Part shown: piece after piece, positions 38,470 through 48,252 of the stretch
Layout of the letters: each line of letters opens with the position of its first letter
Numbering within the stretch: the stretch's first letter is position 1
Source: Candidatus Aenigmatarchaeota archaeon
Lineage (GTDB): Archaea > Aenigmatarchaeota > Aenigmatarchaeia > QMZP01
Length of the DNA stretch: 64,000 nucleotides
Direction: 5' to 3'
Assembly: GCA_016185435.1 (NCBI GenBank)
Contig: JACPNN010000002.1
Span: forward strand, 1 to 64,000
The notes under the pieces: generated by a model
Told to the model about the DNA's origin: nothing
The model's input: only the letters and a program-made list of their open reading frames with translations
Database searches by the model: none
Translations under genes and position numbers: made by a program

Positions 38470-38859
38470 TGTCTAGCTTCCGCTATCTCTATCAAACAAA
38501 CGAAAAAACTAGAAAAGGCAGGCTGTCCTTTGAACCAGGGTCGTCAGGCGTTTAGTGGCACTGGGCTGAACACCTCCTGTTAGTCGGTGCTTACACCCGT
38601 GCCCTATCAACCTTCTCGTATAGAAGACCTTCCTGCCCGCACCGGCTGTTGCCAGCCAGCTTGGGCAATGGCTGCCTCGTTTTGGGGATGGTTTCGGGCT
38701 TAGATGCCTTCAGCCCTTATCCAACACGGCGTAGCTACTCGGCCATGCTATGAACAACCGATAAACCAGAGGCCGCGAAGCCTTGTTCCTTTCGTACTAG
38801 AGGCTTCTTCCCCTCAGGCAACCCGCACCCTCAGCAGATATAGACCGAACTGTCTCACG

Positions 38860-39585
38860 CATGTTTCTCCATTCCTTTCGGAACGGCATGGACTATACCA
38901 TCATCCTCTGCTTGTTCAGAGGAGACCGGCGTATTAGCCAACTTAGCAAAACCGCCATACATATTGAACATAGATGGCGGCAGCTTAATCAGCTCTCAGC
39001 TTTCGCTTCAGTCTCTACGGGGGTAAGAGTTTACTTTTTACAGTCTCGTATGTTATCTTTCTTTTCTTGGAATAGTTGAGCTGTTTGAACTGGTCTACAA
39101 GCTTGCAGATATCCAAAAAATCTTCTTATATCTTTTGTTTTTAAGCTTCTGCAAAATCTCAAGACCAAGTTCAACTTGTTTTCTTTTGAGCTTAACATAC
39201 GGCTGCAGAAGTGAAAGAATTTTCTTCACTTCCTCTGATTCAACAATAGTATAGTCGCTGATCCCTGTTCTACGATGGCGGATGTAGCCCGCTCCAAATG
39301 TGCCTTTAAGCCATTCCAAGATTTCTGGATATTCGGATTTCTGGTAAAAAGCTATGTTGCTTCTTATCTGAAATCCTTGTCTGTAGTCTTTTCTTGGAAC
39401 TATCTGGAAGAATATGCTTCCATCACCATCCAGGAATCCACAGCTATATAAGCAAGAGTTGCTGAATCCGTAAACCCCACCTTCCCTCGGTATTACCATA
39501 TCTTCTTAATTTTGGAAGATTTAGGCTCCACCGATATGAGCCGGTTTTATTTTTCATGATCTTACGACCACGCAACGCCAAATTG
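38860..39585 (-). mobile_element. Group I intron at the 23S position equivalent to E. coli about 2593
   Basis: 726 nt. The 5' exon ends in T (AACGT, last base 39586) and the intron ends in G (38860) before CGTGAGACAG, the group I rule. A guide sequence GCGTT at the start of the intron pairs with AACGT with a terminal U-G wobble. Near the 3' end are core-like segments GTAGAGACTGAA and GGTATAGTCC, matching the conserved R and S elements of P7. The intron carries an I-CreI-like ORF. All other large rRNA introns here look BHB-type instead. Confidence 0.88.
39015..39499 (-). pseudogene. I-CreI-like LAGLIDADG homing endonuclease, frameshifted
   Basis: The first frame (39499 to 39095, 134 aa) has one LAGLIDADG motif, CGFLDGDGSIFFQI at about 19-32. 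It then resembles I-CreI along the chain, including SDYTI and LQPYVKLKRKQ. After KKIF the frame ends early, but a one-base shift at a run of six T (about 39107-39114) opens FLDICKLVDQFKQLNYSKKRK and ends at 39015, matching the I-CreI C-terminus. So either a frameshift has inactivated it or there is a homopolymer sequencing error. Single-motif enzymes act as homodimers. The ORF overlaps the group I core region R. Confidence 0.85.
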
Positions 39586-39591
39586 ACGTTC

Positions 39592-40044
39592 TTAATTGCT
39601 GGGGAGCCATGACATTTTATTCAACAATTCTAACAGCTTTCTTTTTTTTGCTGGATGCGGAATTTCAATTTTTTGGTAAAACTCCATTATAGAACGTTTT
39701 TTACCGATTCTTAAAATATGCTTGTCACGTTTCTTATCCACGAAAATTTGTGATTCAATTTTTGCTTCTGACAAAATTTGCCTGAACCACAACATCATTT
39801 TCTGGCTTTTTGACCATATCTCTATTTTTGGTCTTCCCCTGTCATTTGTTACTGAGCCATCTCCAGCCACCCAGCCTTTGAAATAATCTATTTCTTTGCT
39901 TAGTATCTGTAAGTCAGGTGGCTCTATACTTGCAGATTTGCTGCCTGACGGAATGTTGTATTTTACGAATATAGTCGATCTGTCTCTAGCCAAATGCCCA
40001 TCGCTTGCGATAATTCCAGCTAAAATATCGATAGATGCCATCAT
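39592..40044 (-). CDS. LAGLIDADG homing endonuclease, internally shortened
   Basis: 150 aa. Two LAGLIDADG motifs, ILAGIIASDGHL at about 8-19 and YFKGWVAGDGSV at about 54-65, are only about 46 residues apart, versus about 90-110 in full two-domain enzymes. Most of the first domain is missing, with a junction near residue 25 where a KYNIPSGSKSAS segment follows directly. It is probably inactive as a nuclease. A TATA-like TTTAAG lies about 25 nt upstream. The last codons extend into the exon. Confidence 0.75.
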   Translation of the reverse strand: MMASIDILAGIIASDGHLARDRSTIFVKYNIPSGSKSASIEPPDLQILSKEIDYFKGWVAGDGSVTNDRGRPKIEIWSKSQKMMLWFRQILSEAKIESQIFVDKKRDKHILRIGKKRSIMEFYQKIEIPHPAKKRKLLELLNKMSWLPSN

Positions 40045-40140
40045 TATTTTCCCTGAATTTTAGCTTAAATGTATATGGATAGTAACGTGCCGCTATGGCC
40101 GCTAGAAGTCGACAAAATATTTAGTCTTGACTCCCTCCCA
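39603..40140 (-). mobile_element. 23S BHB-type intron with short LAGLIDADG ORF
   Basis: The boundaries are supported by pairing of GGGAG-TCAA-GAC (40145-40134) with GTC-ATGG-CTCCC (39613-39602), two short helices with opposed bulges as in archaeal splicing sites. The conserved TAGCGG-n3-TAGCGG element is at 40086-40105. Only about 15 nt of exon separate this intron from the group I intron. Confidence 0.7.
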
Positions 40141-40189
40141 GCTAACGTGGCCCTTTAACCAGTGAACACCTGCACCCTTGGGCGCTTAC

Positions 40190-40305
40190 AGAAGCCCCTT
40201 TTCTTTAGAAAAGAAAAGGCCTTTGGGTTCAAAAGAGACTACAATTGTAGTTTTTCTTTCCCTTAAGGCTTTCTTTTTTTTGGAAAAAGAAAGGCTTATG
40301 CTGCA
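40190..40305 (-). repeat. Hairpin insert in 23S near the 2490s-2500s region
   Basis: Two A/T-rich palindromes, CCTTTTCTTT-AGAAAAGAAAAGG type at about 40196-40220 and CTTTCTTTTTTTTGG-AAAAAGAAAG type at about 40268-40294. They separate 23S blocks that are normally adjacent, before and after the AGCAGG segment. Not coding. Confidence 0.7.
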
Positions 40306-40344
40306 CGCCCAGGAAGGGCCGAGCCGACGGCGGAGGAGCAACGT

Positions 40345-40500
40345 ACGGGGTCGATATATCCAGCCATTCTTTGCATTTTCATCTGAGAGAGATAACAATA
40401 TCTACTATGGATTCCAAAGATCGTTTTCTTTTGTTGAACTCTCCCAGAAAAGTTGCCTGCAAAGTGTGGCTTATGAACTCTCACCCGCCACGACTCCATT
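40345..40500 (-). other. ORF-less insertion in 23S after the GGGGATAA segment
   Basis: About 130-150 nt bounded by complementary ends (GCCACACTTTGCA near 40470 and TGCAAAGAATGGC near 40368) between AGAGTTCATA and TCGACCCCGTACG. No ORF with a recognisable motif. Probably a degenerate BHB intron. Confidence 0.55.
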
Positions 40501-40574
40501 TTAGAGATTAGTCAGAAAGCAGTTTTCTAACTAATTATCCCCAAGGTAACTTTTCCAGTTAGCCATTTCTTGCT

Positions 40575-40632
40575 ATCAGTTTTTCTTTTCGCTAGCGTTT
40601 TCTTTTTACAAAAAGAAAAGGCTATTTCTGAT
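40575..40632 (-). repeat. Hairpin insert in 23S
   Basis: Palindromic A/T-rich sequence (TTTTCTTTTTGTAAAAAGAAAA on the minus strand) followed by GCTAGC and a second AAAGAAAAA run, placed between rRNA blocks before the AAAAGTTACC segment. Confidence 0.65.
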
Positions 40633-40713
40633 AGACCGGGCTCCCAATAAAGGAGCACCGGGGATCGCTAGACCAGGCTTTCGCCGTAGGATCTCCCTAT
40701 GTTAGAGATCCTA

Positions 40714-41625
40714 TCAGGCCAGCTTTTGCTCTTGCACTCTAGGCCCGATGTTCAGTTGGGATAGCTTTCTAAATGAAAATAACTCTTTAAACTTCCTTTT
40801 TTCATCCATATTTCTTATGTTCAATACCCATCTTCTTCTTTCATATTTTGATGTTCTGTATACGGAAGATGGTCTTATTTCAATTGTTGCGAATCCAAAA
40901 CTTTGGAGCATTGCTTCGATTTGCCGCAGCACTCTTGGAGGCTCATCAAGCTTTTTCCCTGCCTGAATAATCCTCACTTGTTTGGAATCCCCATCACATT
41001 CATAAAAGGCCATGATAAAGCGTCTTTTCATTTCTTGATTCATGGACTCATATAAATCCTCAGGAATTTCAATATCTGACTCCACTTTGCTGCTTTTTGG
41101 TATTCTCAGCGTTTGGTTGAGCAGTAAGCCCAAAATTTTTGGGTAATAGAAAGTCATTCTAGATCCGTAATCATACTCTTTTCTTTCCACTTCCCCAAAC
41201 ACCTTTCTGATCAATGCATCAAATCTATGCAACACTTCTTTATCATTCATTGTCAAATGAACTCCCCATTGATGGTTTATGCCACCATCTCCAAACAAGT
41301 AACCCAAAAATTCTGCAAAATCCTCTCTCAATTCCATGGGAAGTTTAACTTTAAGTTGTTTGCCATCTCTTTGCGTTTTAATGGTGGCTTTTTCGATTTC
41401 AAGATTTGCTTCCCTTAATAGCTTTTGCAAAACTTTTAATGGATAACCTGAGTTGCCTTCCTTGTATTTGTAAATGTTTCTTACTGGAAGTTCCAATTTT
41501 ATTGCTATTTGTTTTATTGTGCCTCTTTGAAGCAATTGATCCCAAAGCTTTTGGTTGAGTTCACCTTCCAAGCCCACATATATTGCAGATGGGAACTCAT
41601 GTAGAGCAATCGTTATCATATGCAT
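40714..41625 (-). CDS. LAGLIDADG homing endonuclease with N-terminal helix-turn-helix
   Basis: 303 aa. An N-terminal helix-turn-helix-like region (about 28-70, TIKQIAIKLELPVRNIYKYKEG) is followed by two LAGLIDADG motifs, EFLGYLFGDGGI at about 109-120 and FIMAFYECDGDS at about 203-214, a normal spacing for a two-domain enzyme. Asp residues of both motifs are kept, so it may be active. The C-terminal about 10 codons run into the 23S exon. An in-frame ATG three codons on is an alternative start. Confidence 0.88.
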   Translation of the reverse strand: MHMITIALHEFPSAIYVGLEGELNQKLWDQLLQRGTIKQIAIKLELPVRNIYKYKEGNSGYPLKVLQKLLREANLEIEKATIKTQRDGKQLKVKLPMELREDFAEFLGYLFGDGGINHQWGVHLTMNDKEVLHRFDALIRKVFGEVERKEYDYGSRMTFYYPKILGLLLNQTLRIPKSSKVESDIEIPEDLYESMNQEMKRRFIMAFYECDGDSKQVRIIQAGKKLDEPPRVLRQIEAMLQSFGFATIEIRPSSVYRTSKYERRRWVLNIRNMDEKRKFKELFSFRKLSQLNIGPRVQEQKLA

Positions 41626-41668
41626 ATATGGTGGGTAGGAGGTAATAAAGCTATCCCCATTTCTGACC
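40744..41668 (-). mobile_element. 23S intron carrying the 303-aa LAGLIDADG ORF
   Basis: Interrupts the sequence between the CCCGGTCAGAA block (about 41670) and GAGTGCAAGAGCAAAAG (about 40725). CCCG and CGGG at the two sides can pair. The exact splice points are uncertain by about 10 nt. Confidence 0.65.
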
Positions 41669-42019
41669 GGGTTGAGCTGACCTTTGGGCGCGTTCGATGT
41701 CTTTCCGAACGCGTGCCGCCCCAGCCAAACTGTCCATCTGCTGCTGTCAGCCGAAGCATAAGCAATACAGAAGCTGCAGAGCGGTGTTACATCGTCGCCT
41801 TAGCCACATCTAGCGACATGGCCGCATTGCTCCCGCCTACACTATACAGCTGCTGCTATATCGCAACAGCAGACTACAGTAAAGATCTATGGGGTCTTCT
41901 CGTCCCGCTGAGGGACTCCGGAATATGCACCGGACACAAAGTTCACCGGACACCAGCCCGAGACAGTAGAGCTGTCGTTGTAACATTCATGCAGGTCGAC
42001 AATTAATCGACAAGGGATT

Positions 42020-42073
42020 GCATGCTGTTGGCAAACTGCCAGTAGCTAGTGCCACCATGGCAACAGCTTTACG
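42020..42073 (-). other. Mini-insertion in 23S near helix 71
   Basis: About 50 nt without ORF between AGGTAGCG and AATCCCTTGTCG, which are contiguous in normal 23S. Its ends GCTGTTG and CAACAGC are complementary, so it resembles a minimal BHB intron. Confidence 0.65.
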
Positions 42074-42080
42074 CTACCTG

Positions 42081-42131
42081 TTTCCAGGACGGTCTGTGGG
42101 CATCATCTCGCCCTCTCATGTGACCATCCTT
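42081..42131 (-). other. Mini-insertion in 23S next to helix 69
   Basis: About 50 nt between GACCGTCTTAA and AGGTAGCG. The ends AGGATGGTC and GACCGTCCT pair over 9 bp (one G-U). No ORF. Confidence 0.7.
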
Positions 42132-42149
42132 TAAGACGGTCAGAGTTTG

Positions 42150-42475
42150 CGGGGCAAGAGGTTAGAATTCTATTTAAAAATTGCATCAATAATGGGCTTT
42201 TCTACATCAGGATCCAAGTCTTCTCTTTTCAATAAAACTTGGACCACATCCCAATCATTACTGCCTTTAGGGCCTGTGTCAATTTCATATTCTGAATATT
42301 GTCTACACGTTGGACCATCTCCATATACAGTAAAAAAGCGTACAAGCGAATTGTAACTTTTTTTACCTTGACTATTTATGTGTCGAAAATCGTCTATCAG
42401 CAATGCACCTTTTTTAGTAATTAGAGTGACATATGCCCTTTTAACAGTTAGCTTTTTATTCCTGACTCTCGCCTT
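42150..42475 (-). mobile_element. 23S intron in helix 69 with a small non-endonuclease ORF
   Basis: It splits ACGGCGGCGGTAA from CTCTGACCGTCTTAA, the strongly conserved helix 69 region (E. coli about 1920). Ends GGCGAGAG (42474-42467) and CTCTTGCC (42160-42153) pair over 8 bp. About 325 nt long. Confidence 0.75.
42170..42403 (-). CDS. Small intron ORF, unknown family
   Basis: 77 aa from a TTG. The open frame continues upstream through coding-like sequence (about 13 more residues, LTVKRAYVTLITKKGA) to near the intron end with no ATG, so the true start is uncertain. It shows alternating beta and polar segments, SLVRFFTVYGDG and WDVVQVLLKRED, and no LAGLIDADG, HNH, GIY-YIG or PD-(D/E)XK motif. 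It may be a degraded or new maturase-like protein. Confidence 0.45.
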   Translation of the reverse strand: MLIDDFRHINSQGKKSYNSLVRFFTVYGDGPTCRQYSEYEIDTGPKGSNDWDVVQVLLKREDLDPDVEKPIIDAIFK

Positions 42476-43005
42476 ACCGCCGCCGTTTACCAGGGCTTCA
42501 CCCCCTTGGAAAGGGATTTAACACACTGGTACTGGGCAGTTCTCAAGGGCTATACCAATCGTTTCCGAGTTGCAGCCCCCTATGTTTCTTAACCAGATAA
42601 AGCTTCAGTGGCTTTGCCTGTTTGTTAAACAGACGCAGCTCCCTAGTTTCTTAGACCCATGATTTCTGTCTGAGACAGAGTCATGGACACCCGTTATCCC
42701 GAAGTTACCGGGCTAATTTGCCGAGTTCCTTGGACTGGTTTCATCCGACACACCTTTGCCTTCTCAGCAAGGGGCACCAGTGACGGTTCTAGGTACGGGT
42801 GGAATGGGTCCTTCCCTGCTCCCTTTTCACTGGCTCCGGGAGTCAGCCGAAGCAGCTTGCGCCACCTCATCGCAGCTTCACCCGCTTCTCGCCATTACGG
42901 CACTCTGCGGGCTTCACTGCTTGACATATTCCCACATGTCGGCCTATCCCAAAGCGTCAGGAGCAGGGCTTGCGTTGCCGCGCGTACCACTCCAGTACTG
43001 GAATA

Positions 43006-43236
43006 TTAACCAGTTTCGGGTTCGGAAAGACGATAAAAATCTTCGCTCTCTAAATTCTTTAATCCATTTTGGGAGAGTTCCCTTTCAGCGATTGCGATGT
43101 ATTCTTTGAATGTTCCCTTTACCGGAAATGCTTCGAACATGTAAATACCTTCTGCTCCAAAATGGCTTCTAATTCTCTCCAAATCGTAATCTGCATCCCG
43201 AGGAAAATCCTGATAAAACCGATAATAAGATGCCAT
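43006..43236 (-). CDS. Small intron ORF, unknown family
   Basis: 76 aa (MASYYRFYQDFPRDADYD). TATA-like TTTTTAAAGC lies about 27 nt before the ATG. Aromatic and acidic N-terminus, a central GIYMFEAFPVKGTFKEYI segment and a C-terminal helix. No endonuclease motif. The end reaches into the 3' exon. Confidence 0.5.
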   Translation of the reverse strand: MASYYRFYQDFPRDADYDLERIRSHFGAEGIYMFEAFPVKGTFKEYIAIAERELSQNGLKNLESEDFYRLSEPETG

Positions 43237-43282
43237 GAATCTACTTTCTGCTAAGCTTTAAAAACACATCGCCTCTCCAAAT
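43018..43282 (-). mobile_element. 23S intron with a 76-aa ORF
   Basis: About 265 nt. Ends TTTGGAGAGGCG (43281-43270) and CGTCTTTCCGAA (43032-43021) pair over 12 positions with some G-U pairs. It lies between 23S blocks ending GGGAAATTTGG and starting ACTGGTTAATATTCCAGT. Confidence 0.6.
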
Positions 43283-43639
43283 TTCCCTGTTGACATACTC
43301 CAGTTAGGGTATGCCTTAGGACCGACTAACCCTCAGCCGATAATCGTTGCTGAGGAAACCTGGCCCCTCAGGCGGCCGGAATTTTCATCCGGCTTTGATG
43401 CTACTTATAGCAAGATTCTTGATTCCGCACGCTCCAGCCCCCCTCACGGGGAGAATTCTCAGCATGCGGAACACCCCTCTACCATCCTTATTCAGGATCC
43501 GGGGTATCGGTGGTCTGTTTAGTCCCGTCCATTCTAAAGGCCCCCAACCTCGGTGGGTAAGCTGTTTTGCGGCTCAGATTCCTTCCAGCTTCAGCTTACA
43601 TGAGGCATCCTGGCTTACGCACTTTTTAACGGATTCAGC

Positions 43640-43715
43640 TCTGAGGAGCAATCATTTTTGAGTAATAAGATATAATTTTCGAATTTTCGTTATTGAAGAT
43701 CGCTTTTCAGATTGG
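43640..43715 (-). other. ORF-less AT-rich insertion in 23S
   Basis: About 75 nt of AT-rich sequence after GGCTTAGAAGCAGCC and before AGTGCGTAA, where other 23S genes have a much shorter linker. No coding potential. Confidence 0.5.
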
Positions 43716-43884
43716 CTGCTTCTAAGCCAACCGCCCCACTGTTTTAGGTTGAAGACTCTTTTCCTCACTTAACAGACACTTAGGGACCTTAACCCCGGGC
43801 CGGTTTTCTTTACCTTTCGGACGACGAGCTTACCCCGTGCCCCCACTCCCGCCTTCTATGGCGGCCAAAGATTCGGAGTTTCGT

Positions 43885-43963
43885 CTGGCCTCTCTTCGTC
43901 TTTCTTTCGCTGGCGTTTCTTTATACGCACATCAACATGGAAAGAAAGGCCATTTGACAGGGC
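43885..43963 (-). repeat. Hairpin insert in 23S
   Basis: About 80 nt between GTCAAA and ACTCCGAATC, with TGGCCT/AGGCCA ends and internal CTTTCTTTC...GAAAGAAAG arms. These blocks adjoin each other in normal 23S genes. Confidence 0.65.
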
Positions 43964-44273
43964 AACTGACCCTTTCGAGTCTTGGTTACCCAATCAGTAG
44001 CTCTACCCTCTGGCCTGCCTCCGGCGAGGCTGAACTGCGGTTCACTTCGAGGGGAACCAGCTATCACCGCTTTCGATTGGCTTTTCACCCCTAGCCCCAG
44101 GTGACGGGAGCGATTTGAATCTCAACACCCCATGCGGCCCTCCACCTAGCTTTCGCTAGGCTTCAGCCTCCCCAGGACTAGATCAAGCGGGTTCGGGTCT
44201 CAACCCTGTGACTCGGGCGCTTTCACACCCAGCAGCCTGACCCTTGCGGGCTGCGCTGCATTCGCTTTCGCGA

Positions 44274-44315
44274 GCCCTTTCTTTCCAAAAGAAAGTGCTT
44301 CACCCCAAAGAAAGG
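44274..44315 (-). repeat. 42-nt hairpin element, 23S copy
   Basis: Identical over 42 nt to 56292-56333 in the 16S gene, including a CTTTCTTT-CCAA-AAGAAAG palindrome. The flanks, a TTCGCG-AGCCC context, also match. It lies in an extra hairpin region (about 44270-44375) of the 23S. Confidence 0.85.
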
Positions 44316-44564
44316 ATTTTGTCATGATGAGCACTTATTTCCAGAGAGAAAGGCTTTTTCGCTGCGGCTTCCCTTATCGGTTAGCCTCGCCACAGAGATG
44401 AACTCCTTGCCGAATGCTTCGAAACTTACGATACAACCAGCCATGACCCTGCCTCCATACTGAGTATGTTCGGCAGGGATAAGCGTGGCCATACCACCCT
44501 GTGGCTGTGTGGTTTCAGGTTCTTTTCACCCCCTGTTAAGGGTTCTTTTCAGCTTTAGGGATAT

Positions 44565-45622
44565 GCTAATTGCCTAGCAGACGTTTCAATTTTTCTCTTT
44601 TTTGCCCTCTGAAAATGCCAAGTGAATAGAGTTTTACCGCCTCTTTTTTGGCAGTGGTTAAAATTTTACTATTTTTCTCATACTGGTAATTATGAAAGTT
44701 TATCCCGAGATGTGCAAATATTTCCACAAGATTATTTCTCAATAGCTCGCTTTCTGAGCCGAGGCCTATGCTGACTATGCCTCCTATAATTGTGGAATGT
44801 CCATCAAAATTTATGACTTCTTTTGCAAACTCCCATCTTAATTGCCATCTTAAATCTTCAGGGAACTCTGACAAAATTCTAGCATCTTTTCCAGAGAAAA
44901 TTGCAGGTTCCTTTACTATGTGAGATTTCTCTCCAATAGGAAAATCAAAAAGCAGCACAAGATACCGTGAAATTATCTGCATATTTGTCCATATGTAACT
45001 CATCTTACCTTTCTTGAGAATAGGCAGTTCAATCTCAAATAAGTCATCAATCCATTTTTTAACTGCAAGGATGTTCGATTTTTCTAAATCTCCAATATCC
45101 CATCTAGCAGTTGTAGGTCCTTTACCTTTCCAACCATATAAACAGCCGTCAGCTGCATGCGCTCCGCATATATTGGCAAGTTCTGGTCTTAAGTAAATAA
45201 CTGCCTTGATTTTCTTTGATACCCTCCCGCACTGAAGATGTGTAATGTTCCTGATAATCTCATTATGCATTTCAGAACCTTTGGAATACGTCAGTTGCAG
45301 TAGTTTATCCAATGCCCAAAGTGGAATCGGATGCCCCTTAGGATATTTCTTGTTAAAGCCTCTCCAGTTTTGAATGGAGATTTTGTTCACATTCATAATC
45401 TTGGCCAACTGGGCATAACTGATTCTGCTGTTCTGGCAGAAACTCGTCGAAAGCTCATCGAAAATCTTGTTGAGTTTCTCACCTCCGAATGCCCTTACTG
45501 CTGATTTTTCCGTATCCTCCGGATGATGCAGTTTCAAGATATCTATTAGAGGGTACATTTTTACACCATACTATTATATAGTAGTACAGTGTAATTATAA
45601 AGCCTATGACGGCAATTAGCGC
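44565..45622 (-). mobile_element. 23S BHB-type intron with the 330-aa ORF
   Basis: Interrupts GAGGGAAA | GCTGAAAAGAACCC. The ends GCTAATTGCC (45620-45611) and GGCAATTAGC (44575-44566) are a perfect 10-bp inverted repeat that brings the exons together. Confidence 0.85.
44566..45558 (-). CDS. LAGLIDADG-type homing endonuclease with N-terminal HTH
   Basis: 330 aa. A helix-turn-helix-like segment (about 45-70, ISYAQLAKIMNVNKISIQNW) is followed by divergent LAGLIDADG motifs: LANICGAHAADGCLYG at about 127-142, and AKEVINFDGHS near 245. Acidic residues are kept, though the motifs are unusual. A palindrome ACTACTATATAATAGTA just before the start may be a TATA/operator site. The ORF ends at the 3' repeat. 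Confidence 0.75.
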   Translation of the reverse strand: MYPLIDILKLHHPEDTEKSAVRAFGGEKLNKIFDELSTSFCQNSRISYAQLAKIMNVNKISIQNWRGFNKKYPKGHPIPLWALDKLLQLTYSKGSEMHNEIIRNITHLQCGRVSKKIKAVIYLRPELANICGAHAADGCLYGWKGKGPTTARWDIGDLEKSNILAVKKWIDDLFEIELPILKKGKMSYIWTNMQIISRYLVLLFDFPIGEKSHIVKEPAIFSGKDARILSEFPEDLRWQLRWEFAKEVINFDGHSTIIGGIVSIGLGSESELLRNNLVEIFAHLGINFHNYQYEKNSKILTTAKKEAVKLYSLGIFRGQKREKLKRLLGN

Positions 45623-45671
45623 ATTTTCCCTCGCAGTACTAGTTCGCTATCGGACTTACCCCCAGAGAAGC

Positions 45672-46559
45672 TCACACAGATGGTGTATTGGAAATATATT
45701 CAACAGAAGGCAATAGATTGTGAAGATTATGAATTTCCAAAAGGTGTATGAGATCTTCATAAAATATTACCTTGACATCGCCCTCACAAAAATTAGTAGG
45801 TTTTGATGCAGTCGTTATGACCCATGCACTTTGAGCATCATGATTTTTCCTGTTTCGACTTGCCTCTCCTATTCCATGCTTCCAATAAAAGCTTCTTTTT
45901 ACTGTTGCTTTGTGTTCGATAATTATAGATTTTCCATGTTTGCTTACAATCATATCCGGCCCATGGCCGTTATATATTTTTTGTGTATGGTTTATTTTAT
46001 AGCCCATTTTGTTGAATAATGCACTAAGAACTTCGGTCAGTATTTCATATTTCTCTTTTGCGACTTTCTGGTTTAGTGCACGCTTCTTAACTATTCCTGC
46101 TTTAACAAGTCTGTAATGAACACTTGAAGGATGGAGTTTCAACATATTCGCTGTTTTTGAAATGGATCCAGTTTTTCTGTACAGATTTTGCATAATCTCT
46201 TCTTGCTTTTTGGTAACTTTTGGCGAAAATTTCCCATTTTTTGAAGTGTCAACACCCACTTTATTGAGATAATATCTGACTGTTCCATTATCTGTGTTAT
46301 ACTTCTTCGCTATATCAATTGTCGATTGGCCACGTAAATACATCTCTTTAAACTGAACCACATCGCTGTTATAGAATGCTGTTTTATGTTGCCTCTTTTT
46401 CCTGCACTCATCCTGTACCTGTTTCTTGAGATGGAAATGAACAGTCCCTGAACTCAACTTTAATTTATTTGCTATTTCCCCCATCGATATGCCGCTATTG
46501 TACATTTGCACCATTTTTGGTATTAGCTGCATATCGATTTTGGGATAAAAATTGGCCAT
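45672..46559 (-). CDS. Intron-encoded PD-(D/E)XK nuclease with three HTH segments
   Basis: 295 aa. Three helix-turn-helix units at about 11-45, 66-100 and 117-155, each with a pattern like EIANKLKLSSGTVHFHL, precede a restriction-type nuclease core at about 170-265. That core has Glu in ILTEVL (about 176), GPDMIV with D202, SIIIEHKA with E215 and K217, and a DAQSAWVITTA strand. No LAGLIDADG motif is present. TATA-like TTTTTAAATA lies about 22 nt upstream. Position inside the 23S and multi-HTH DNA binding argue for a homing endonuclease of the PD-(D/E)XK class. Confidence 0.85.
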   Translation of the reverse strand: MANFYPKIDMQLIPKMVQMYNSGISMGEIANKLKLSSGTVHFHLKKQVQDECRKKRQHKTAFYNSDVVQFKEMYLRGQSTIDIAKKYNTDNGTVRYYLNKVGVDTSKNGKFSPKVTKKQEEIMQNLYRKTGSISKTANMLKLHPSSVHYRLVKAGIVKKRALNQKVAKEKYEILTEVLSALFNKMGYKINHTQKIYNGHGPDMIVSKHGKSIIIEHKATVKRSFYWKHGIGEASRNRKNHDAQSAWVITTASKPTNFCEGDVKVIFYEDLIHLLEIHNLHNLLPSVEYISNTPSV

Positions 46560-46627
46560 ATTGATAATTCTGCATACCTATTTAAAAATGTGAAGGGAGG
46601 GCAGCATACCGGCAATGCCGATACACT
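45680..46627 (-). mobile_element. 23S intron encoding the PD-(D/E)XK nuclease
   Basis: Lies between the block ending GAATGGTGCAGGGCA (about 46630) and GTAAGTCCGATAGCGAACTAGTAC (about 45655). GTGTAT (46626-46621) pairs with ATACAC (45688-45683). The 5' end carries a variant of the shared intron element (TATCGG-n3-TGCCGG, about 46602-46622). Confidence 0.75.
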
Positions 46628-46816
46628 GCCCTGCACCATTCATTATGGAGCTTCCCCAGTTCAGGCTATATTTAGGATTGGCCCTTATTGCGGGCCGTCT
46701 TCCCATTCCATATCCGAGGAATGGTACTCAGGATACCTTGCATCAGCCCTCCAGAATTCGCATACGGGGCTTTCACCCTCTCTGGCATGCCGTTCCAGGC
46801 AACTTCTGCTCAACTT

Positions 46817-47596
46817 TCAGGCCGGACCAAGGTCCATACACCACATCCCTGCTCCATTGCTGGGCAGGTTCGGTTTGTCCTCCTCCCTTTTCGATCGCCT
46901 TTTAGCTATCAGAGCGACAGCCTCATGCAACCTAGAAATTTTATCAGGATGCTTGAATCCGATAATATCATTAAAGAGCAAAATGCCCTTACTGCGAATA
47001 TGAATTTCATATCTGTTATTTCTTGGATAGCGATAAACACTATGTGGAACATTAATTTCTGACAACACTTTTGAAATGTCGTCAACCAGTTTTTGACTTC
47101 CAACCTTGAACTCAACAACAGGATAGATATAGAACCTTCCTCTTTTCCTGTCCTTTCAGAAGGTTATACATCCTTCCCCATCAAATAAGCCTCTCAGTAA
47201 ACTGATTTTGTGATCAACAATATTGAAAGGGTCTTTGGTCGGTAATTCAGCACTCAGCGTCTTGTTTCCGTTAGGAATGATTTCTGAAAGCTTTTTCCAA
47301 ATCTCTTTGTTGCTTGCAGTTACATAAAAGCAATCAGCTTTAGGATGTTTCCTTATGCATGGCTTCAAACCAAATTGCTCATATACTGATCCAGCTACCT
47401 GTTTTGCAAAAGCTTCCGATCTATCTGCTACAAAATCTACCTGATAGCGATATGAATTGGGACCTCTGCTATCACGATAGCGATATATGCCGCCATCTGC
47501 CAACAGAAGTCCCAATAGGTAAGCCATTTCTAAAGTCACATTTACTGTCGCGCCGATATTTACTAAGGGAATGCCGGTTGGTCTCTTTTGAGGCAT
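46817..47596 (-). pseudogene. LAGLIDADG homing endonuclease with in-frame UGA
   Basis: From the ATG at 47596 the ORF has motif 1 (YLLGLLLADGGIY) and motif 2 (LRGLFDGEGCITF). It then meets TGA at 47158-47156. The same frame continues without a break through a normal C-terminal half (RGRFYIYPVVEFKV to IIGFKHPDKISRLHEAV) and ends at 46817, partly within exon. A single nonsense change therefore interrupts an otherwise intact gene. The upstream extension to 47698 would translate rRNA exon and the intron element. Confidence 0.8.
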
Positions 47597-47672
47597 GATA
47601 GGAACTTGATTTTGTTTATAATCTGCATTGGGGTAGTGATATGCCACTATACCGCTATACTTTGACAATATG
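46905..47672 (-). mobile_element. 23S intron near the 5' end of the gene
   Basis: Between the CCCGGAGGAAA region (about 47700) and GGCGATCGAAAAGGG (about 46900). The shared 5' element (TATAGCGG-TATAGTGGCA) is at 47660-47641. Precise splice sites are not resolved. Confidence 0.65.
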
Positions 47673-48252
47673 CTCCCTCTGCTGTTAGCTCCCATCATGT
47701 TTCCTCCGGGTATTAAGATGTTTCAGTTCCCCGGGTACCCCTTCCGGATTGCTCCGGAATGCCTGGTAAACCAGGCGGGATTCCCATTCAGCAACCCTGG
47801 GATCGATGCCTGCATGCGGCTCCCCCAGGCTTATCGCAGCTTGCCGCGGCCTTCATGGGTACCTGAGCCAAGCCGTTCACCACACAGCCTAGTGACCCTG
47901 TGTGTCCGGACAGCCTGCCTGTGACAATCATTATAAAGGGACTCGCAAGGTGTTCGACTAGCGCTCATCGCCCCTTCTCATGTCAGCCCTCGCACCGTTC
48001 GGTGCAGAGCCTCATAATGTCCATTGAGGGACCATGAATGCCACAGACATGTGGCCGATGAATAAGCCTAACCAAAAGAGAAGTCCAGAGAATAGCGTAC
48101 TGTATAATGAGATGCTGTCGCCAGCTCCCACCACCTTAGCTGCAGCTCTGCCGTCTGCCACAACAGCTTAGCCGACTCTGAACAGCCCTTGATGGCCCGG
48201 CTCCAATGCAATGATATGATGATTATTAGTGTTAAGATTATGACTGCGAAGG

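Follow-up and report, generated by a model that had tools for sequence, protein, structure and literature searches.

Locus and group I core

The window, that is, the whole 64-kb stretch of DNA analysed, carries on its minus strand the 23S rRNA gene of an archaeon, about 9.35 kb long (38537..47892) and located by Rfam search and exon alignment. The gene is three times the usual length and holds about 16 insertions summing to more than 6 kb, several of them BHB-like and several with ORFs. Its 5.8S-like 5' part is set apart from the remainder, and therefore Rfam names it 5.8S. One of the insertions is an intron of 726 nt (39585..38860, minus strand). By sequence inspection, its flanking exons read ...TTAAGAACGT on the 5' side and CGTGAGACAGTTCG... 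on the 3' side. Alignment to E. coli rrlH placed the insertion after E. coli 23S position 2593, and the 3' exon begins at E. coli 2594. An earlier sequence-only reading of this DNA had given the boundaries 38860 and 39585 and a site at about 2593; the boundaries proved exact to the base and the site was confirmed by the rrlH alignment. The P6 loop of the intron carries an I-CreI/I-MsoI-like LAGLIDADG_1 ORF of 134 aa (39098..39499, minus strand). On the upstream side, a BHB intron of 541 nt (39596..40136, minus strand) is inserted after E. coli 2583, and the 10-nt exon UUAAGAACGU (39586..39595, minus strand) lies between the two introns.

Several other insertions of this 23S gene were recorded. 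An insertion of 328 nt near E. coli 1913 (42148-42475, minus strand) contains a short ORF-like stretch unlike LAGLIDADG, and a small insertion near E. coli 1930 lies just downstream of it. An ORF of 295 aa (45675-46559, minus strand) has repeated HTH motifs fused to a Mrr_cat/PD-(D/E)XK-like nuclease domain. The HTH motifs resemble CRISPR-repeat-binding Cbp1 (NCBIfam 1.5e-10, under the cut-off), and the ORF is possibly a non-LAGLIDADG homing endonuclease within an archaeal rRNA intron. An inserted ORF of 330 aa (44569-45558, minus strand) has no match in Pfam or NCBIfam and includes a LAGLIDADG-looking stretch, ICGAHAADG.

The 726-nt intron follows the group I splice-site rules. Its 5' exon ends in U, which forms a U.G wobble in P1, and its terminal base is G (omega G, 38860). 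P1 (39574..39590; all elements are on the minus strand) joins the exon bases AACGU and C39585 to GGCGUU (39579-39574), with the wobble at the splice site. The pairing AACGU/GCGUU, the U-G wobble and the final G had already been pointed out from the sequence alone, and they reappear here with P1 as AACGU-C/G-GCGUU. P2 is a hairpin, CGUGGUC-GUAA-GAUCAUG (39555..39572), which is 93% paired over 69 introns with 221 doubly changed cells. The 5' strand of P3, ACCGGC (39540..39545), pairs with GCCGGU (38930-38925). This pairing is kept at 100% in 13/13 archaeal introns, where 12 cells are doubly changed and seven additional pair types occur; other archaeal introns have ATTGAC/GTCAAT, ATCCGC/GCGGAT or ACTAGC/GCTAGT in its place. 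P4 (UCGGU 39534-39530/ACCGA 39491-39487) encloses P5 within 39487..39534. The 5' strand of P6/P6a, GGG-AA-GGU (39479..39486), finds its partner ACCCCC at 39024-39019, across the ORF. The 5' strand of P7, G(A)GACUG (39009..39015), pairs with UAGUCC (38895-38890), and both the bulged A and the G-C pair of the guanosine site were found, in agreement with the P7-like segments noted earlier. P7.1 (AGC/GCU) and P7.2 (AGCUGAUU/AGUUGGCU) occupy 38936..39007 as extra stems typical of IA introns, P7.2 with 151 doubly changed cells over the 69 introns. P8 is the hairpin CCUCUG/CAGAGG (38905..38922). P9.0, P9 (CCGUUCC/GGAAUGG) and the terminal G complete the intron (38860..38889). The order of elements is complete: P1, P2, P3, P4, P5, P6, the ORF, P6', P7, P7.1, P7.2, P3', P8, P7', P9.0 and P9. 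The P3-P8 core with its P3/P7 pseudoknot is present.

When the covariance models R1 and R3 were folded with default settings, few pairs were retained, and therefore the named structure was counted separately. P2, P3, P6a, P7.2 and P9 covary across the 69 introns at 2593, far above shuffled and slid controls. In the 3' half of the intron, 88.4% of cells are paired against 33-40% when the strands are slid, and 96 cells are doubly changed against 35 in shuffles. A covariance model built from 24 relatives, with the window left out, matched 38854-39022 (minus strand) with E=1.8e-19 and had no second match in the whole 64 kb. RF00028, the check proposed with the sequence-only reading, gave a divided result. 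A whole-genome search returned a match at 38869-38986 (minus strand; E=4e-4, 23.6 bits) under the 50-bit gathering cut-off of the family, and window-wide and local cmscan listed no match at the gathering threshold or at a window-level E<=10, probably because the large ORF splits the core. The sub-threshold score agrees with the RF00028 result for archaea in PMC6125680, where RF00028 gave no significant archaeal match and subtype models did. The sequence-only reading had called the element a group I intron, to be abandoned if either a P3-P8 core or a group I model match could not be found. Both the core and model matches are present, and the splice-site rules, the covariation and the covariance model uphold the assignment. 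The intron appears IA3-like, judging from its direct relatives, which are classed IA3 in PMC6125680, and from P7.1 and P7.2.

The omega position is A, not G, in four archaeal 2593 introns (L018, L020, L022 and L026), which keep P7 and P9.0. A missing omega G reportedly has a precedent in Coxiella.

Endonuclease reading frame

The ORF in the P6 loop matched LAGLIDADG_1 in Pfam (2.7e-10) and, among PDB entries, single-chain I-MsoI (4e-33) and I-CreI (1.7e-18). Enzymes of the I-CreI/I-MsoI type have a single LAGLIDADG motif and about 160 aa. The window ORF has this single motif and end-to-end homology to I-CreI, with 41% identity over 143 aa, only if it is read across one frameshift. In the enzyme alignment, the catalytic residues D20, Q47 and K98 of I-CreI correspond to the invariant D26, Q53 and K105. 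The claim that the ORF resembles I-CreI along its length thus stands for the homology and falls for a single frame, which is broken by two frameshifts in the assembly. The first is a 2-nt insertion in the LAGLIDADG codons (GCTGTGGATTC vs GC--AGGATTC, ~39439..39443, minus strand). It is absent from 12/12 archaeal relatives, which all read [A/V]YIAGFLDGDG there. The second is a T6 run (39115..39120, minus strand) that lacks one base relative to the ancestral frame, and the I-CreI-like C-terminus goes on in another frame to ~39018. The two frameshifts are unique among 13 archaeal copies. The archaeal copies L026 and L056 are likewise interrupted, and the core ORF is uninterrupted in 10/12 archaeal relatives.

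The ATG of the 134-aa frame sits in P5, where relatives leave this frame unused. The first dozen residues of the frame correspond to the conserved RNA core, which lies in another frame in relatives. MxIPREG at the ORF start was considered as a conserved protein segment and rejected; relatives read it in a frame that is not that of the enzyme, and it belongs to the RNA core. Several relatives have an in-frame start codon of a type that was not found in the window ORF. Since the two frameshifts are absent from the 12 archaeal relatives, the endonuclease gene is probably decaying. It is possible that the 134-aa protein is partly functional, since the ORF is still open from the ATG inside P5.

The strongest alternative is that the intron is still mobile, its endonuclease functional and the frameshifts either assembly errors or bypassed. 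The conserved aligned catalytic residues and the uninterrupted core ORF of most archaeal relatives would suit this reading. The indels also fall on a T6 run and a TG repeat, an assembly error behind either is possible, and the study of CPR bacteria notes that metagenome assemblies can contain such artefacts (PMC11270868). However, one short gene holds two independent indels, and no such damage is seen in other long ORFs of the window. The missing in-frame start codon and the terminal branch of the window enzyme (0.58), longer than in most archaeal relatives, also speak for decay. Continued mobility is therefore rated as unlikely, though it keeps an appreciable share of our judgement.

Relatives and history

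A scan of genome contigs recovered 289 relatives of the enzyme, of which the best 80 were kept. Among these best 80 of 289, archaeal and bacterial, nearly all lie in 23S genes at 2593. Within the same best 80, identity to the window enzyme is mostly 58-75% for DPANN archaea, 56-63% for Gammaproteobacteria, a deltaproteobacterial bin and a Thiomargarita bin, and mostly 39-50% for CPR, Omnitrophota, Chloroflexota and others. Over the archaeal relatives as a group the range is about 55-75%. Viral contigs yielded distant enzymes only, at most 34% identical. In the enzyme tree, the phylogenetic check suggested earlier, the window falls inside an archaeal clade (support 100/92), which is nested with proteobacterial enzymes in a 100/89 clade. 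The recovered archaeal enzymes form one clade except for a contig filed as Lokiarchaeota, which was judged bacterial in PMC6125680. I-CreI and I-MsoI sit on long branches without a firm place in the tree, with I-CreI outside the archaeal clade at weak support.

Four of the loci (L056, L022, L024 and L023) bear the accessions of the published introns IA3.1, IA3.4, IA3.9 and IA3.10 (PMC6125680). These introns are similar to the window intron in rRNA site, subtype features and LAGLIDADG ORF. The window differs in its host lineage, in its length of 726 nt, which is absent from their length table, in the two frameshifts of its ORF and in the BHB intron 10 nt upstream. Introns of CPR bacteria at the same 23S position encode enzymes of the same Pfam family, LAGLIDADG_1, and these enzymes too cluster by insertion site (PMC11270868). 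The CPR 2593 enzymes are 39-50% identical to that of the window for most loci and belong to a different clade.

Within the window's phylum, the enzyme at 23S/2593 was found in no other of 156 genomes, and the core model found no comparable intron in archaeal 23S genes of this set; many of these genomes are without a complete 23S gene. Two enzyme matches (G090 and G060) were rejected as 23S/2593 copies because both lie in 16S genes. The strongest other matches of the core model fell on contigs with bacterial rRNA, and those in G070 and G091 were rejected as archaeal introns for their bacterial LSU rRNA. The contigs concerned (C93 of G070, L135; C79 of G091, L136) come from archaeal bins, have bacterial LSU rRNA in which group I introns or core-model matches occur, and are probably misbinned. 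In a genome of the same family, a 16S gene has close to its 3' end a group I intron over the RF00028 cut-off (L137 1516-1810, minus strand, G001). A strict empty-site pattern overlooked close relatives with differing site sequences, and therefore no absence was concluded from it.

If intron and enzyme had been passed down vertically from a shared ancestor, DPANN or earlier, the single clade of recovered archaeal enzymes would agree with this. However, neither search found the element in the other phylum genomes, a point weakened by the many incomplete 23S genes, and the tree mixes copies from micrarchaea with copies from woesearchaea. Strict descent is accordingly rated as improbable. Sporadic presence together with a common site is typical of an element that homes and spreads horizontally, a history argued for CPR as well (PMC11270868).

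A recent transfer between algal chloroplasts and archaea receives still less credence. The introns of I-CreI (Chlamydomonas chloroplast) and I-MsoI (Monomastix chloroplast) occupy the same 23S site. Both enzymes share the single-LAGLIDADG homodimer type with that of the window, the identity to I-CreI is 41% across a frameshift, and an AU test neither favoured nor rejected I-CreI with the archaea as one clade (p=0.096). However, the closer relatives are archaeal and proteobacterial, the archaeal clade excludes I-CreI at 100/92, and both chloroplast enzymes are long branches. The window enzyme differs from these two in its separate archaeal/proteobacterial clade and in its frameshifted ORF. The sequence-only reading had left the choice between transfer across domains and a very old association of site and enzyme. 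The latter fits, with nearly all of the best 80 relatives at 2593, and there is no support for a transfer specifically between chloroplast and archaeon.

Taken together, we hold with high confidence that this is a group IA3-type intron at LSU 2593, most likely self-excising, that would have arrived by homing and whose endonuclease gene, with two frameshifts, is probably decaying. Because the ribozyme core is complete, self-excision is most likely. It would proceed by two guanosine-dependent transesterifications, in which the U.G pair of P1 would set the 5' splice site, the G-C pair of P7 would hold first guanosine and later the terminal G, and P9.0 would place the 3' splice site. The arrival would have been driven by the product of the P6-loop gene, a single-motif LAGLIDADG enzyme of the I-CreI/I-MsoI type that would cut the uninterrupted 2593 site, and the element would belong to a pool moving among DPANN archaea and bacteria. 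In this genome the gene is probably decaying, and the need for functional 23S rRNA would keep the ribozyme intact.

BHB neighbour, shared exon and significance

The ends of the upstream intron given by BHB scoring agree with the exon alignment. Its motif has a central helix of 4 bp (GCUG/CAGC), 3-nt bulges GGA and AAU, an inner helix of 8 bp and an outer helix of 3 bp. The intron carries a LAGLIDADG_3 ORF of 150 aa (39592..40044, minus strand; PF14528 3.4e-11), the stop codon of which extends into the 10-nt exon. That the tRNA splicing endonuclease removes the 726-nt intron as one more BHB intron with a LAGLIDADG gene, like its neighbours, is suggested by the other BHB-like introns of the gene and by this clear case 10 nt away, but it is rejected on sequence with hardly any doubt, as no BHB motif exists at 39585/38860 (the score reaches only 16, and that with the ends shifted, vs 37 at the exact ends of the neighbour, 40136..39596) and the group I core is complete and covarying. 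The earlier picture of a group I intron amid BHB introns is borne out by the same scores.

Of the ten bases of the exon UUAAGAACGU, one falls in a bulge and three in the outer helix of the BHB motif, one is a spacer and five belong to P1, a division that would let the BHB motif and P1 form together. We tentatively propose that two unrelated splicing systems have this exon in common, its first four bases serving BHB and its last five P1, so that enzymatic and ribozyme splicing would be compatible or ordered. This micro-exon lies near the peptidyl-transferase region of 23S rRNA. No intron occurs at the upstream BHB spot in the archaeal relatives, whose 5' exon runs uninterrupted through AGCTGGGTT. 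Tight packing of introns is already known from IB4.7 and IB4.15, which are only 8 nt apart (PMC6125680).

In 2018, IA3 introns of archaea were published that lie at LSU/2593, carry LAGLIDADG genes in P6 and coexist with BHB introns; IA3.1 is described as having its ORF in P6 (Nawrocki, Jones and Eddy 2018; PMC6125680). The novelty implied by the sequence-only reading was therefore overstated. The type has been known in archaea since then and is widespread in bacteria, and the window adds a new copy to a known family. Nevertheless, the small known set of archaeal group I introns gains a well-supported member with strong covariation. Far from being peculiar to archaea, LSU/2593 and the I-CreI-type enzyme represent one mobile system found in DPANN archaea, in CPR and other bacteria, and in algal chloroplasts. 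An intact ribozyme accompanied by a probably decayed endonuclease matches the published homing cycle of invasion, fixation and decay. The BHB and group I introns flanking a 10-nt exon offer a natural test case for the coexistence of both types of archaeal rRNA intron.
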